A stretch of 64,000 bases of DNA, from contig JAITSY010000027.1 in NCBI GenBank assembly GCA_031287415.1, positions 1 to 64,000 on the forward strand, given 5' to 3'. This DNA comes from Candidatus Methanorbis basalitermitum (GTDB taxonomy: Archaea; Halobacteriota; Methanomicrobia; Methanomicrobiales; Methanocorpusculaceae). Of the stretch, positions 17,779-24,697 are shown piece after piece. Positions within the stretch are counted from its first letter, which is position 1, and every line of letters begins with the position of its first letter. The position numbers and the translations under genes are program-made. The notes beneath the pieces were generated by a model, which was given only the letters and a program-made list of their open reading frames with translations, was not told the DNA's origin and did not search any database.

Positions 17779-17970
17779 AAACAAAGCTTGACTTTGCATC
17801 GGCTGGTGGCGTGCAGTAGGTTGCACATGCGATTTTCCCTTGCGGAAGCCGTGTCCTTGCCAGTATATCCCAAAATTATGGGCAAGAGGTCACTTACGAT
17901 GAACATACGTCGATCTGGACCACTCCAAGTGCGATTGAACAGCTGGCAAACGAATGTGAGGATATGCAAC

Positions 17971-18293
17971 ATGAAAATGATTGTAGCAGTCATCTGGCCG
18001 GATAAGAGGGATGACGTTGTAGATGCCCTTGAGACGCAGAATGTCCCAGGAGTAACCATCACTGATGTCCACGAATGCGGTGAGCAGGGGGGTATCTGCC
18101 CGCAGTATCATGCAGGTTCATACCCTACCGAGGGCGAAGCTGGAAATCGTCATCCTGGATACGGAGGTCGATACTATTTATCAAGACGATCCGTGAGCAT
18201 GCACGGACGGATAAGACGGGAGACGTGCGTATCTTTGTGCTGCCGGTTGCTGCAGCTGCATGGGTACGTACTGATGACGTCATCGTAGGATAA
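17971..18293 (+). pseudogene. PII / NifI-like nitrogen regulatory protein, pseudogene
   Basis: PII proteins sense 2-oxoglutarate and ATP/ADP and regulate nitrogen metabolism. The start MKMIVAVIWPDKRDDVVDAL matches the family opening. After about residue 55 the frame shifts to KLEIVILDTEVDTIYQ, then shifts again to TIREHARTDKTGDVRIFVLP. The last block is the conserved PII C-terminal signature, with 'IREHART' closest to the NifI subfamily encoded beside nitrogenase genes in methanogens. The length when merged is about 105 residues, normal for PII. It lies 3.5 kb from the nitrogenase-like operon. Confidence 0.82.
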
Positions 18294-19650: not shown

Positions 19651-20072
19651 AATGGGTTGTTGCGACCGGGACGTTTGATATTCTGCATCCCGGGCATTTG
19701 TTTTATCTGGAGGAGTCGAAGAAGCTTGGCGATGAGCTGTGGGTGATTGTTGCCAGGGAGCGGAATGTGATGCATAAGCCGCGGCCAGTTGTTCCTGAAA
19801 AACAACGTTTGCGGATGATTTCTGGGTTGCAATGCGTGGATCATGCGGTTCTTGGAGATAGAGAGGATATATTCCGGCCAATTGCGGAGATTGATCCAGA
19901 TATTGTTACACTTGGATTTAATCAGATGTTTTCAGAAGAGCTGCTGCTTTCCCAGATGCGGGAGCATGGCATCCGTGCAGATGTTGTGCGGATTGGGGAT
20001 TATACCGGCTGCCCGTTTAATTCTTCGACGAAAATTATTGATGAGGCGGTGAAGAGGAGATGCAGGGGATGA
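19647..20072 (+). CDS. ribL: FAD synthase RibL (archaeal nucleotidyltransferase)
   Basis: Archaeal RibL transfers AMP from ATP (or CMP from CTP) to FMN to make FAD. The cytidylyltransferase signature is clear: VVATGTFDILHPGHLFYLEE with the HxGH motif, and the late FNSSTKIIDEAV motif. At 141 residues it is full length. It starts with GTG overlapping the JAMM gene stop. A glycerol-3-phosphate cytidylyltransferase is the other possibility for the family, but this archaeal subgroup has been shown to be FAD synthase. Confidence 0.85.
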   Translation: MKWVVATGTFDILHPGHLFYLEESKKLGDELWVIVARERNVMHKPRPVVPEKQRLRMISGLQCVDHAVLGDREDIFRPIAEIDPDIVTLGFNQMFSEELLLSQMREHGIRADVVRIGDYTGCPFNSSTKIIDEAVKRRCRG

Positions 20073-20674
20073 GGAAGGCTTCTGTTGATGAGGAGGTTGT
20101 GCGGCTGACACGTTTTATCCGCGAGAACGGCGGTGATGCGGTGTTCATTGATGTGGATAAGATAGTTACGGGTGCGTGGGTAAGGATGAAGTGCCTGTTC
20201 GGCTGTAACGGATTTGGGCGGCGGTTTTCATGTCCGCCTTACGCGCCTGCGCCTGCAGAGACGCAGGCCGTACTTGACTGTTATTCCCATGCGCTTCTGG
20301 TGCGGTTTGCGGGGGACATTGGGGAGCCGGTTCCGGAGCGGCGGGTGTCCCACGAGATGACACGGTATGTGCAGAGGGTGATGTTTGAGCTGGAGGATAT
20401 GGCATTTCAGGATGGTTTTTACAAGGTGTTCGGGTATACGGGTCATCAGTGCGGCTGGTGTGCAAACTGCTGCGCAAAAGAAGGGGGGACGGTGATTACG
20501 GACTGCAAAAACCGGCAAAAAATGCGGCCGAGTATGGAGGCTGCGGGTATGGATGTGTATGCGACATGTGCGAATGCGGGATGGAAACTGGATGTGCTGG
20601 AGTGTACGCAGGTTCCGGGCAGTGCGGTGCTTCATTCACCGATGACAACGGTGATGCTGCTGCTTTTGGAATAA
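20069..20674 (+). CDS. DUF2284 metal-binding protein
   Basis: A 201-residue cysteine-rich protein. Cysteines cluster in MKCLFGCNGFGRRFSCPPYA and GHQCGWCANCCAKEGG, with a further conserved CANAGWKLDV at the end, as in DUF2284 proteins thought to bind iron-sulfur or zinc. Function unknown. The ATG at 20069 overlaps the ribL stop by four bases (ATGA); an earlier in-frame ATG at 20060 is also possible. It is the last intact gene of the JAMM-RibL-DUF2284 run. Confidence 0.82.
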   Translation: MRKASVDEEVVRLTRFIRENGGDAVFIDVDKIVTGAWVRMKCLFGCNGFGRRFSCPPYAPAPAETQAVLDCYSHALLVRFAGDIGEPVPERRVSHEMTRYVQRVMFELEDMAFQDGFYKVFGYTGHQCGWCANCCAKEGGTVITDCKNRQKMRPSMEAAGMDVYATCANAGWKLDVLECTQVPGSAVLHSPMTTVMLLLLE

Positions 20675-21746: not shown

Positions 21747-22871
21747 TCAGTTCCCTTTTTGCCGGTTCATCAGAGCATTGAGCGCTCCTTCTATCAACAC
21801 AGCCCCGCCTTCAATGCCTGCAAGAGGACGGGCCGTAATGGATATACGGCTCCGGTCCGGCGGGGTGATACCAAAGAATGCAGCCCTGCGGTAGGTGGCC
21901 GCCTCAAAGGTTGAGCCGATGATCAGATCAGGTTCTGCTGCAGCAATCGCTGCATTGATCTCCACGGAGTTTGCCGAGTACGGCACACCATCCGCACCGT
22001 GGTCTCGAGCAAACACAATGGGGACATCTGAGCCGAAATAACGCTCCATCATCATTTTTGCAAAAACAGCGTAGCTCTCTTGCGCCGCGACCACAACGAT
22101 CGGCGGATTGTACTTCCGCAGATACTTGTCGCAGGAGTAGTACATGTGCTCCTCAGCACGCTTCCATTCGGCAAGGACAGCATCGCAGTTCGTGACTGGG
22201 AAAACACCCACAAGTCCTTCAACAGTTTTTGGGATATCCAAGAACAGCAGGCTACCAAGATTGGTACCCACCCCGGAAGGGTACGAAGAATTAGCCGAAA
22301 CCGTGAATGGTGCAGCGCCTGAGCGGAGATTTTTGTACGTGTCGCAGCAGAACCGCACCGCAACCGAAAGACCTAACAGGCCAAGCAACCGCTCTGTCTC
22401 GCGCAGATTGCCGCACCAGAAAAGATCCAGGAGATTAATACCATCAATGTTGATGCCAATGCGAGTGTCGCTGACAGCAGGTGCGACGGCGGCGATGGCT
22501 CGTTTTGTTCCTTCTTCCGCATTGCCGCAGAACCCCGGGGCATCCACAAAGATCGCAGAAACGTCAGAGAAGGCAGTCTTCAGATCCTCGCCTATCAACG
22601 CCGGAACACAGGTGTTGACTACGGCAATCGGCTTCCCAGTAGAGGCAACCTCGGTCACCACCTCACGCAGCCGGTCGATAGTGCCGAACACAATCTCCGA
22701 CTCCAGAAGGTACGTACTGAACAACGGAACCTTCAGGAACGACCGCGGATAGTAGTAACAGCCGGACGAGCCATGAATGATCACACAAAGATCGGGAAAC
22801 CCTGCAAGGGCTGCCACTGCCCCGGTCATCGCACACGGCCAGACCGGATTCATACATCTGCTGTCAGCCAT
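21747..22871 (-). CDS. Nitrogenase-like NifK/NifE-type subunit of an uncharacterised group IV reductase
   Basis: A 374-residue member of the nitrogenase component 1 superfamily. From the ATG at 22871 the N-terminus reads [20 protein letters not shown], with further cysteines in the HGSSGCYYYPRS loop (C38) and in NTCVPALIGEDL (C88). These match the places where NifK-type proteins bind the shared P-cluster or [4Fe-4S] cluster. The longer open frame to 23162 lies over the preceding gene and is not coding. The start overlaps that gene's end by 8 bases. I see no nifE/N/B nearby. It is longer and differently spaced than F430-biosynthesis CfbD, which has no partner of this kind, so the substrate is unknown. 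Confidence 0.75.
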   Translation of the reverse strand: MADSRCMNPVWPCAMTGAVAALAGFPDLCVIIHGSSGCYYYPRSFLKVPLFSTYLLESEIVFGTIDRLREVVTEVASTGKPIAVVNTCVPALIGEDLKTAFSDVSAIFVDAPGFCGNAEEGTKRAIAAVAPAVSDTRIGINIDGINLLDLFWCGNLRETERLLGLLGLSVAVRFCCDTYKNLRSGAAPFTVSANSSYPSGVGTNLGSLLFLDIPKTVEGLVGVFPVTNCDAVLAEWKRAEEHMYYSCDKYLRKYNPPIVVVAAQESYAVFAKMMMERYFGSDVPIVFARDHGADGVPYSANSVEINAAIAAAEPDLIIGSTFEAATYRRAAFFGITPPDRSRISITARPLAGIEGGAVLIEGALNALMNRQKGN

Positions 22872-23925
22872 GGTTCGTCGCCCCCCTCCACAGAGAGAGC
22901 ATCTTTTCAACACCCGCCGTTCCAATGGGAAGGTAAAATGGCAGCCGGATCGGAAACCCATCGGACCGTTCTTCCATTGACAGCCGGGTAATTGCCTCGC
23001 GGGCAACTGCACAGGTCCCGGAGAACGGCTCAGCCCCAAGAAAGACAGATCTACCAGAAAGCCCCGCAAATTTTGCGAGCATTGCATTCTGATATGCTGT
23101 TTCACTCTCCATTGCGGCCGTAATTTTCTCTTCGGGAACGTTGCAGGCTTTACCGACATCACACAAGAACAAAAAACAGCCGGAGAGTCCGCGGGGAAAC
23201 TCGGGGATCACTGGGCGGCCGAACCGCTCACCGAACACTTTTCCTGCGGCTGCGACTCGTTCGTCCCGCAGAACAAAACACTGGGAACTGCCAAGCTGCA
23301 TAAGTGTAGCGTAATTGCCGTTGCGGCAAAACCGCACCGTCACCCGAAGACCGAGTTTTGCGAGCAGACGCTCCACCTCCGCATAATTTAGGTCAGCCTC
23401 GAACTCAAGATTCTTCTCACCGATAAGAGCAACTGTCCCGAACACCGATTTAGCAACGGGGGAGCGGGTGGCGAGCGCGGTAAGAACAGCATTCTCTCCG
23501 TCTTTGGCGCTCCCTCCCAAAAATCCCGATGCCGGCACATAGAGGATCCGATCCGCGTACAAATGGCGGGCACAAACTGCGCCGCAGTCATCCCCGATGG
23601 TCTCCGGAATGCAGGAAGTTACGACGATGATGAGATCCGGGCTTTCCACGGCAGCACGATCCAATGCGGCGGAAAGGCAGTCCTCACCACCGAATATCAC
23701 CTCACGATCCCCGAAGCTGGAGACAAGAATCTCCGGCACAATCCAGACATCACTATCATTTATCATCGCATGCAGCATCGAAAACGCCTGATGCACGCAG
23801 CCCTCAGGAGCGTGGACGACAGCAACCGCTCCTGGGATAAAACAGGCGACCGACAGAGCACCCCCTAAAGCACAGCCAGCCATCCGGGATTCATAAATAC
23901 TCTCTGGCAAGATTCTCCAGCTCAT
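22864..23925 (-). CDS. Nitrogenase-like NifD-type subunit of an uncharacterised group IV reductase
   Basis: About 353 residues. From the ATG at 23925 it reads [20 protein letters not shown], with C18, C28 and C43 ([12 protein letters not shown]) and then C105 in [14 protein letters not shown]. This is the NifD/BchN-like cysteine pattern for a cluster at the subunit interface. The ATG at 23925 overlaps nflH by 35 bases; the next methionine (23883, MAGCALGG) would start 7 bases after the nflH stop and is an alternative. The Cys/His ligands that hold FeMo-cofactor in true NifD are not evident, so dinitrogen reduction is not expected. Middle gene of a tight three-gene operon. Confidence 0.75.
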
Positions 23926-24697
23926 CAAGTTCAAGGGCTTTTGGAATCCGCAGGTCTTCGTTGGCAAGAATCGTTTTTGCAAGCCCACGATATATCTCAG
24001 CCTGCAAAGAGATTGGGGCATACTCGATCACCGTCATCCGGTTCACCTCGGCGACCTGCACCGCTTTATCGCGAGGGATAAACTGCACAAAATTTGAACC
24101 GATACGGTTTGCAAATTCCTCGACAAGCTCACGCTCGTTGTCCATATTTTTGGAGTTGCAGATAACACCACCGAGCCGGCAGCGTGCCGTGCCCCGTTGA
24201 GAAAGCCGCGCGATCGCTTTACAGATATTGTTTGCAGCATAGAGGCTCATCAGTTCGCCGCTTGTTACCAGATAGACCTCCCGCGCGTAGCCGTCCCGCA
24301 TCGGCATGGCAAACCCTCCGCAAACCACATCCCCAAGGACGTCATAGATTACAATGTCACCATAAAGCGCTTTCATTTTTTCCAGCAGCTGAAACGTTGC
24401 GATAATTCCTCGGCCCGCACACCCGATGCCAGGCTCCGGGCCCCCGGCCTCCACGCATCGAGTACCGCCAAATCCGGTGAAGACAACATCATTCATAGCG
24501 ATATCTTTTCGTTCGTACATCTGCTCAAGCACGGTTGGAATCCAGCGACCGTTCATCAGCATTCTGGTACTGTCGTGCTTTGGGTCACAGCCAATCTGCA
24601 TGACGTCCAGACCCATCTCCGCAAACGCCACCGACAGATTTGCAGATGTCGTGGATTTCCCGATACCTCCTTTGCCGTAGAGGGCTATCTGTCTCAT
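23891..24697 (-). CDS. NifH-like ATP-dependent reductase (nitrogenase iron protein homologue, group IV)
   Basis: A 268-residue NifH/BchL/CfbC-type protein that should hydrolyse ATP and pass electrons to its partner proteins. The P-loop is GKGGIGKST (residues 8-16), switch I includes [10 protein letters not shown] (37-45), and the two cysteines that bridge the [4Fe-4S] cluster between monomers are C93 in GIGCAGRG and C126 in [11 protein letters not shown]. The conserved [10 protein letters not shown] loop precedes them. It is the first gene of the operon, preceded by its own promoter. By itself it could be CfbC of F430 synthesis, but the two downstream component-1-like subunits argue for a different enzyme. 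Confidence 0.85.

Follow-up and report, generated by a model that had tools for sequence, protein, structure and literature searches.

The window, a stretch of 64,000 nucleotides from Candidatus Methanorbis basalitermitum, belongs to a MAG of 1.16 Mb that is 74% complete. Between positions 21747 and 24697 its minus strand carries three open reading frames that overlap or nearly abut, which we call H, D and K. A tight minus-strand operon of a NifH homologue and two component-1 homologues had been predicted here, and the reading frames and their Pfam profile scores bear this out. The features are as follows.

21747 to 24697, minus strand: the HDK operon, one tight unit in which D overlaps K, and H and D overlap or abut
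23891 to 24697, minus strand: H, Fe protein of the NifH/CfbC family, 268 amino acids, with a P-loop (Fer4_NifH 351.6 bits)
22864 to 23925, minus strand: D, alpha-like subunit of component 1 with a shortened domain III (PF00148 148.9 bits)
21747 to 22871, minus strand: K, beta-like subunit of component 1, 374 amino acids in three full domains (PF00148 121.2 bits)

The P-loop of H and the two cysteine ligands of its [4Fe-4S] cluster, C93 and C126, are both present, as the original prediction had stated. The start of D is uncertain. The protein has 353 amino acids if translated from the ATG at 23925, which overlaps H, and 339 from the ATG at 23883. In several relatives D starts some 18 residues ahead of the first conserved cysteine region and overlaps H in the same way, and we therefore favor the former. 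K starts at the ATG at 22871, overlapping the stop codon of D. The operon is flanked by short reading frames lacking Pfam matches and by a truncated P-II gene, and decay of the flanking genes is plausible. The P-II (GlnB) remnant lies on the plus strand at 17967-18288; it has a normal start and matches 42 of 102 Pfam positions, after which the frame departs. On the same strand, at 20060-20674, there is a gene for a DUF2284 predicted metal-binding protein, adjoining a cytidylyltransferase-like gene.

Conservation and selection across the Methanomicrobiales

Full-length D, taken as a match of at least 290 bits, was found in 137 of 150 Methanomicrobiales genomes; an automatic tally of 146/150 counts weaker matches too, CfbD among them. 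D is present in nearly all genomes of the family, and the named relatives with a D that is 52-77% identical to that of the window are Methanocorpusculum. Beyond the order the best scores drop sharply, to about 135 bits or less. K is present in 68 of the 70 Methanomicrobiales genomes that were surveyed for it. Four genomes that are at least 90% complete gave no strong match to D (G049, G072, G125 and G149), and in G049 the H gene is cut off, probably at the end of a contig. The K matches of two genomes contain one in-frame TAA (G053:C1:335117-336223 and G087:C12:33699-34814); these may be pseudogenes, or the assembly may be at fault.

Wherever a named relative locus has both genes, H and D are neighbors, in one case with a gap of 203 bases. 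K lies next to D in most named loci, the main exception being Methanoculleus. In loci of that type (L188, L202, L210, L213, L216, L217 and others) K lies 3-5 kb from H and D on the opposite strand, and in some Methanoculleus loci it was not found within the stretch examined. D and K are thus kept together throughout the order, even where K has been relocated. Comparisons of close pairs gave dN/dS values of 0.04-0.06 (H) and 0.08-0.17 (D and K); D evolves faster than H. The prediction that the operon is intact and under selection holds for all three genes (dN/dS 0.04-0.17), and the selection is purifying. Taken together the profile scores, the dN/dS values and the order-wide conservation exclude chance as the origin of these reading frames.

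The neighborhood of the operon gives little guidance on function. A TrkH-like gene upstream of HDK recurs in most loci of the Methanocorpusculaceae. The other recurrent flanking genes (MBL-fold, uridine-kinase-like and isopropylmalate-type) provided no lead, and conserved neighbors were set aside as a functional clue. No tetrapyrrole genes lie beside HDK in any relative locus examined, and no radical-SAM partner or sulfur gene was found beside it among the loci of relatives. Some Methanocorpusculaceae (G015, G028 and G006; loci L028, L029 and L031) have full nif clusters (nifHDKEN) besides HDK.

The Fe protein and F430 synthesis

H scores 415.3 bits against the NCBIfam CfbC model NF033200, for which the cut-off is 402, and no second NifH-family protein exceeds the cut-off in the 74% complete MAG. 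In family- and order-wide surveys most genomes have H as their single Fe protein above the cut-off of this model, and where there are further matches the genome has a nif cluster or another nitrogenase-like set. In the sampled genomes of the Methanosarcinaceae and of f14 (Methanocellaceae-like) the gene order is cfbE-cfbD-cfbC-cfbB (L138-L143 and L145). The window genome (L023) and G031 (L032) have cfbA-cfbE-cfbD-cfbB, in which cfbD abuts cfbB and leaves no gap for cfbC; the layout was examined in these two Methanocorpusculum-like genomes, and for the rest of the order we have the counts of matches to the CfbC model. The H gene is located outside the cfb cluster in the window genome. A search for separate cfbC and cfbD genes gave a divided result: cfbD was found (G000:C15), with 479.5 bits against TIGR03282 (cut-off 268), but H is the only candidate for cfbC. 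The original prediction had taken the operon to be unconnected with F430, with CfbC and CfbD encoded elsewhere. That part of it is not supported as it stands, given that H is the sole protein of the NifH/CfbC family found in the MAG and that the cfb cluster has no cfbC.

The F430 reductase requires an Fe protein (PMC7242693). With classical cfbC missing and H the sole candidate, H must serve F430 synthesis, barring an unrecognised protein. Judged from gene content, H is very probably the donor for CfbD as well as for DK. The genome G072, which is 99% complete, is instructive. At its locus L160 D and K have been cleanly lost, yet H is kept at the syntenic position downstream of the TrkH-like gene, and no more than 171 bases separate it from the next gene. 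Because H is retained there on its own, it has a role that is independent of DK. Equally, since DK is absent from G072 and apparently also from G149, the reaction of DK is not vital.

The sequence identity of H is 46-51% with classical CfbC, 51-56% with NifH and 58% with the H protein of another archaeal cluster. The best tree places H nearer to NifH (85/68), but in the AU test a joint clade of H and CfbC is not rejected (p = 0.24), the tree being one built without the CfbC of Methanobacteriota such as M. jannaschii. We had considered H a clear non-orthologous replacement of cfbC, and gave this up because the test allows a single clade. Its location and its similarity suggest that H may be a different Fe protein that replaced cfbC; it could also be a displaced cfbC.

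The D and K subunits

D and K score 25.8 and 45.3 bits respectively against TIGR03282, far below the cut-off of 268, and each of the 70 Methanomicrobiales genomes tested has one CfbD. These low scores, the genuine separate CfbD and the position in the tree rule out D or K being CfbD. In a tree built without BchXYZ, MarDK and Isr sequences D and K each form a fully supported clade, with CfbD, NifDK and NifEN separate. D groups with the NifE-like part of NifH-NifE fusions (100/98), a grouping that has a long BchN branch inside it, and K joins the partner K of the same fusions with modest support (81/86). Profile comparison leads to the same relatives. D matches the D part of the fusions best (score 359) and NifE next (243), NifE/NifEN being its best match among characterised proteins. 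K matches the fusion K best (198), barely ahead of the D of HDK (193). We found no nifE or nifN in the MAG (74% complete), where only D, K and CfbD match PF00148. NifB was present in all 12 genomes tested, including that of the window. NifDK or a degenerate nitrogenase is ruled out by the tree and by the missing FeMo-co ligands described below. The prediction that D and K make up a heteromeric component 1 of the nitrogenase-like type, distinct from NifDK and CfbD alike, is thus supported by the separate clades and the separate CfbD. D and K do not fall inside the CfbC/CfbD clade in a genome devoid of other cfb genes, nor inside the NifDK clade with nifENB elsewhere.

Four cysteines in D (C7, C32, C94 and C107) and four in K (C13, C20, C45 and C95) are invariant in 41 of 41 sequences taken from across the order. 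C7, C32 and C94 of D align with C62, C88 and C154 of NifD, and C20, C45 and C95 of K with C70, C95 and C153 of NifK. The remaining invariant N-terminal cysteine of K, C13, is not at a P-cluster ligand position. In larger alignments D C107 is nearly invariant, while K C13 is below the 90% listing, partly because the K rows start later. The original prediction had listed cysteines numbered from the starts at 23925 and 22871. Its C18, C43 and C105 of D correspond to C7, C32 and C94 of the alignment, and its C13, C38 and C88 of K to C20, C45 and C95, all six being P-cluster equivalents. Its C28 of D and C29 of K are not conserved, and its C6 of K is conserved but is the one that lies away from the P-cluster ligand positions.

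Downstream of the N-terminal cysteines there is no cysteine or histidine conserved in most of the 41 sequences, with the exception of K C254 (29/41). The position of NifD C275 is a gap in D, beside an invariant R209, and the segment that carries His442 in NifD is absent; the ligands of FeMo-co are thus missing, as had been predicted. D is without much of domain III, while K has the whole of it. Nor is any cysteine or histidine conserved in D at the position of the L-cluster in NifE. Since there are no further conserved cysteines or histidines and D is without the His442 segment, catalysis by FeMo-co or an L-cluster is unlikely. In the alignments DK thus has the ligands of a P-cluster, but none can be seen for an active-site cluster. 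AlphaFold2 models of D and K (pLDDT 89 and 92 respectively) match NifDK, NifEN, DPOR and Mar in fold, MarDK being at roughly the same distance as NifDK and DPOR. The fold search returned superfamily matches only, and no clear nearest solved structure.

Several known systems share part of this character. With CfbCD the operon has in common an Fe protein above the CfbC cut-off, the only candidate for the CfbD of the window genome, and a component 1 without FeMo-co ligands. However, CfbD is a homodimer encoded elsewhere, whereas component 1 of HDK comprises D plus K with six P-cluster-type cysteines; and H is less similar to classical CfbC than it is to NifH. DPOR (BchLNB), for which a cofactor-free active site is proposed, is similar in fold (TM about 0.7-0.8), but has one [4Fe-4S] cluster with an aspartate ligand, and the shortened domain III of D sets HDK apart. 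MarHDK and IsrHDK of group IV have the HDK layout, and MarDK has the six P-cluster cysteines. Yet MarDK binds [8Fe-9S-C], and DK has neither equivalent conserved ligands nor an adjacent radical-SAM partner.

The closest relatives of D and K by tree and profile are the systems with a NifH-NifE fusion and a NifN-like partner, which were mentioned as 'data not shown', with no function given, by Dos Santos 2012 (PMC3464626). We find them in Methanosarcinaceae and a few Methanomicrobiales (L101-L103). The D-like part has the same three cysteines, and FeMo-co ligands are likewise missing. They differ in that H and D are fused into about 740 amino acids where HDK has separate genes, and in that the partner K retains one of the three cysteines, with aspartate at the C70 position, where the K of HDK has all three. 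Frequent neighbors of the fusions are an FecCD permease (L096), CobN (L096 and L102) and CbiK (L105), and no tetrapyrrole genes neighbor the fusion loci L098-L100. The same paper describes NifEN-like 'yellow' clades that have three cysteines per subunit and no FeMo-co ligands, again with no function given (PMC3464626). DK has the same pattern of cysteines and missing ligands, and it is by pattern that we compare it with these clades; the order-wide conservation of HDK and its link to F430 are not described there. The ABC-transporter-linked NifEN-like pair Mlab_1040/1039 of Methanocorpusculum labreanum is also part of a nitrogenase-like three-gene set in a Methanocorpusculum-type host. It is a different system that has fewer cysteines and is distant in the tree from the D and K of the window. 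In G012 a second nitrogenase-like set of three genes (L030 4427-7566) adjoins FecCD-like ABC transporter genes and resembles the Mlab_1040/1039 layout (Dos Santos 2012).

A possible reaction and its alternatives

Fe proteins of the H type are homodimeric ATPases with one [4Fe-4S] cluster that dock on component 1 and pass single low-potential electrons with hydrolysis of ATP. The H homodimer would dock on component 1 of HDK in this manner, delivering its electrons one at a time at the cost of ATP. The lack of a classical cfbC leaves H as the sole candidate, and the gene content strongly suggests that H in addition docks on the separately encoded CfbD homodimer and fills the role of CfbC in F430 synthesis. 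The conserved cysteines suggest that D and K form a heterodimer or a (DK)2 heterotetramer, in which D C7, C32 and C94 and K C20, C45 and C95 would hold a bridging Fe-S center of the P-cluster type. Given the absence of a FeMo-co or L-cluster ligand and the cut-back domain III of D, the bridging cluster would probably pass its electrons directly to an organic substrate that binds in an open pocket, as is the case for DPOR and CfbCD. Our guess is that this substrate may be a tetrapyrrole, and perhaps one containing nickel or cobalt that these methanogens synthesize or recycle. The guess draws on the donor held in common with CfbD, the lack of metal-cofactor ligands, and the FecCD and CobN/CbiK neighbors of the fusion relatives. 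To the reading as a whole, that HDK is a complete two-component reductase whose H also serves CfbD and whose DK reduces a tetrapyrrole directly via the bridging cluster, we give a probability of about 0.4.

A number of observations go against a tetrapyrrole. Known tetrapyrrole reductases use a [4Fe-4S] cluster with fewer cysteines (PMC12552129), while DK keeps all six; the K-like subunit of the nearest relative itself is reduced to one of its three. Tetrapyrrole genes are absent from beside HDK, as they are from fusion loci L098-L100. On the trees, the link to the fusions would be loosened by the long BchN branch on the D side and the modest join on the K side.

The complete P-cluster cysteine set is shared with MarDK (PMC12552129) and with NifEN-like clades described by Dos Santos 2012 (PMC3464626), which raises the possibility that DK resembles methylthio-alkane or isethionate reductase in reducing sulfur compounds or other small molecules, and that a large, unusually bound cluster sits in its active site. 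NifB could supply an L-cluster, and in fold MarDK lies at about the same distance as NifDK and DPOR. We think this unlikely, with the equivalents of Cys275 and His442 missing, most of domain III absent from D, and neither a radical-SAM partner nor a sulfur gene beside the operon. NifB would also be needed if DK were a NifEN-like scaffold or maturase that hands on the [8Fe-9S-C] cluster, for example to the MCR activation complex, in which McrC and Mmp7 carry such clusters. Methanogens do employ L-clusters in MCR activation (PMC12176620), and NifE/NifEN is the best characterised match of D. But other methanogen orders have active MCR without the HDK operon, G072 has lost DK despite having NifB and CfbD, and the position of the NifE L-cluster is without a conserved cysteine or histidine; such a role is improbable.

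The Fe protein held in common with CfbD, and the chelatases among which the nearest relatives are set in several loci, could also suggest that DK is a second, heteromeric CfbD, a Ni-sirohydrochlorin a,c-diamide reductase, or that it acts on a later F430 intermediate or an F430 variant. With a full CfbD in every genome tested a plain duplicate is unneeded, and in the tree CfbD is no close relative of D or K, so there is little to recommend this explanation. Finally the operon might be the cfbC of the order together with passengers; as partners of H, D and K would then be vestigial or have a regulatory role, such as that of a docking competitor that tunes the supply of H to CfbD. The genes for D and K are downstream of that for H, D evolves more quickly than H, and G072 indicates that H is needed independently of DK. 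However, all the cluster cysteines and dozens of other invariant residues are kept order-wide, dN/dS is near 0.1, and both D and K persist where K has moved away, which would be unexpected of passengers. We consider this very improbable.

Returning to the reading of HDK as a two-component reductase of a tetrapyrrole, we put forward its fullest form only tentatively, and as a doubtful proposition. The Methanomicrobiales would then have a new tetrapyrrole reductase, with a relay of the P-cluster type and no active-site metal cluster, a combination undescribed in characterised members; its donor would be common to the F430 enzyme and would have displaced the original cfbC. Nitrogenase-like proteins with such a cysteine pattern, and fusions of H to E, have been known since 2012 (PMC3464626). 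In the open-access literature, subscription papers being outside the search, we found neither the order-wide HDK operon nor the missing cfbC described.

F430 is essential to methane formation, and the reductive step in its synthesis needs a dedicated Fe protein. If the Fe protein is common to both systems in the whole order, the supply of F430 would be tied to another pathway, a link that is hidden by the database labels, which call H 'CfbC' and both D and K 'nitrogenase component 1'. The near-natural knock-out in G072 and the loss of cfbC make the case testable now. It bears on the swapping of partners among nitrogenase-like enzymes, on whether a P-cluster can work when no further cofactor follows it, and on a function that is conserved in a major group of methane producers.
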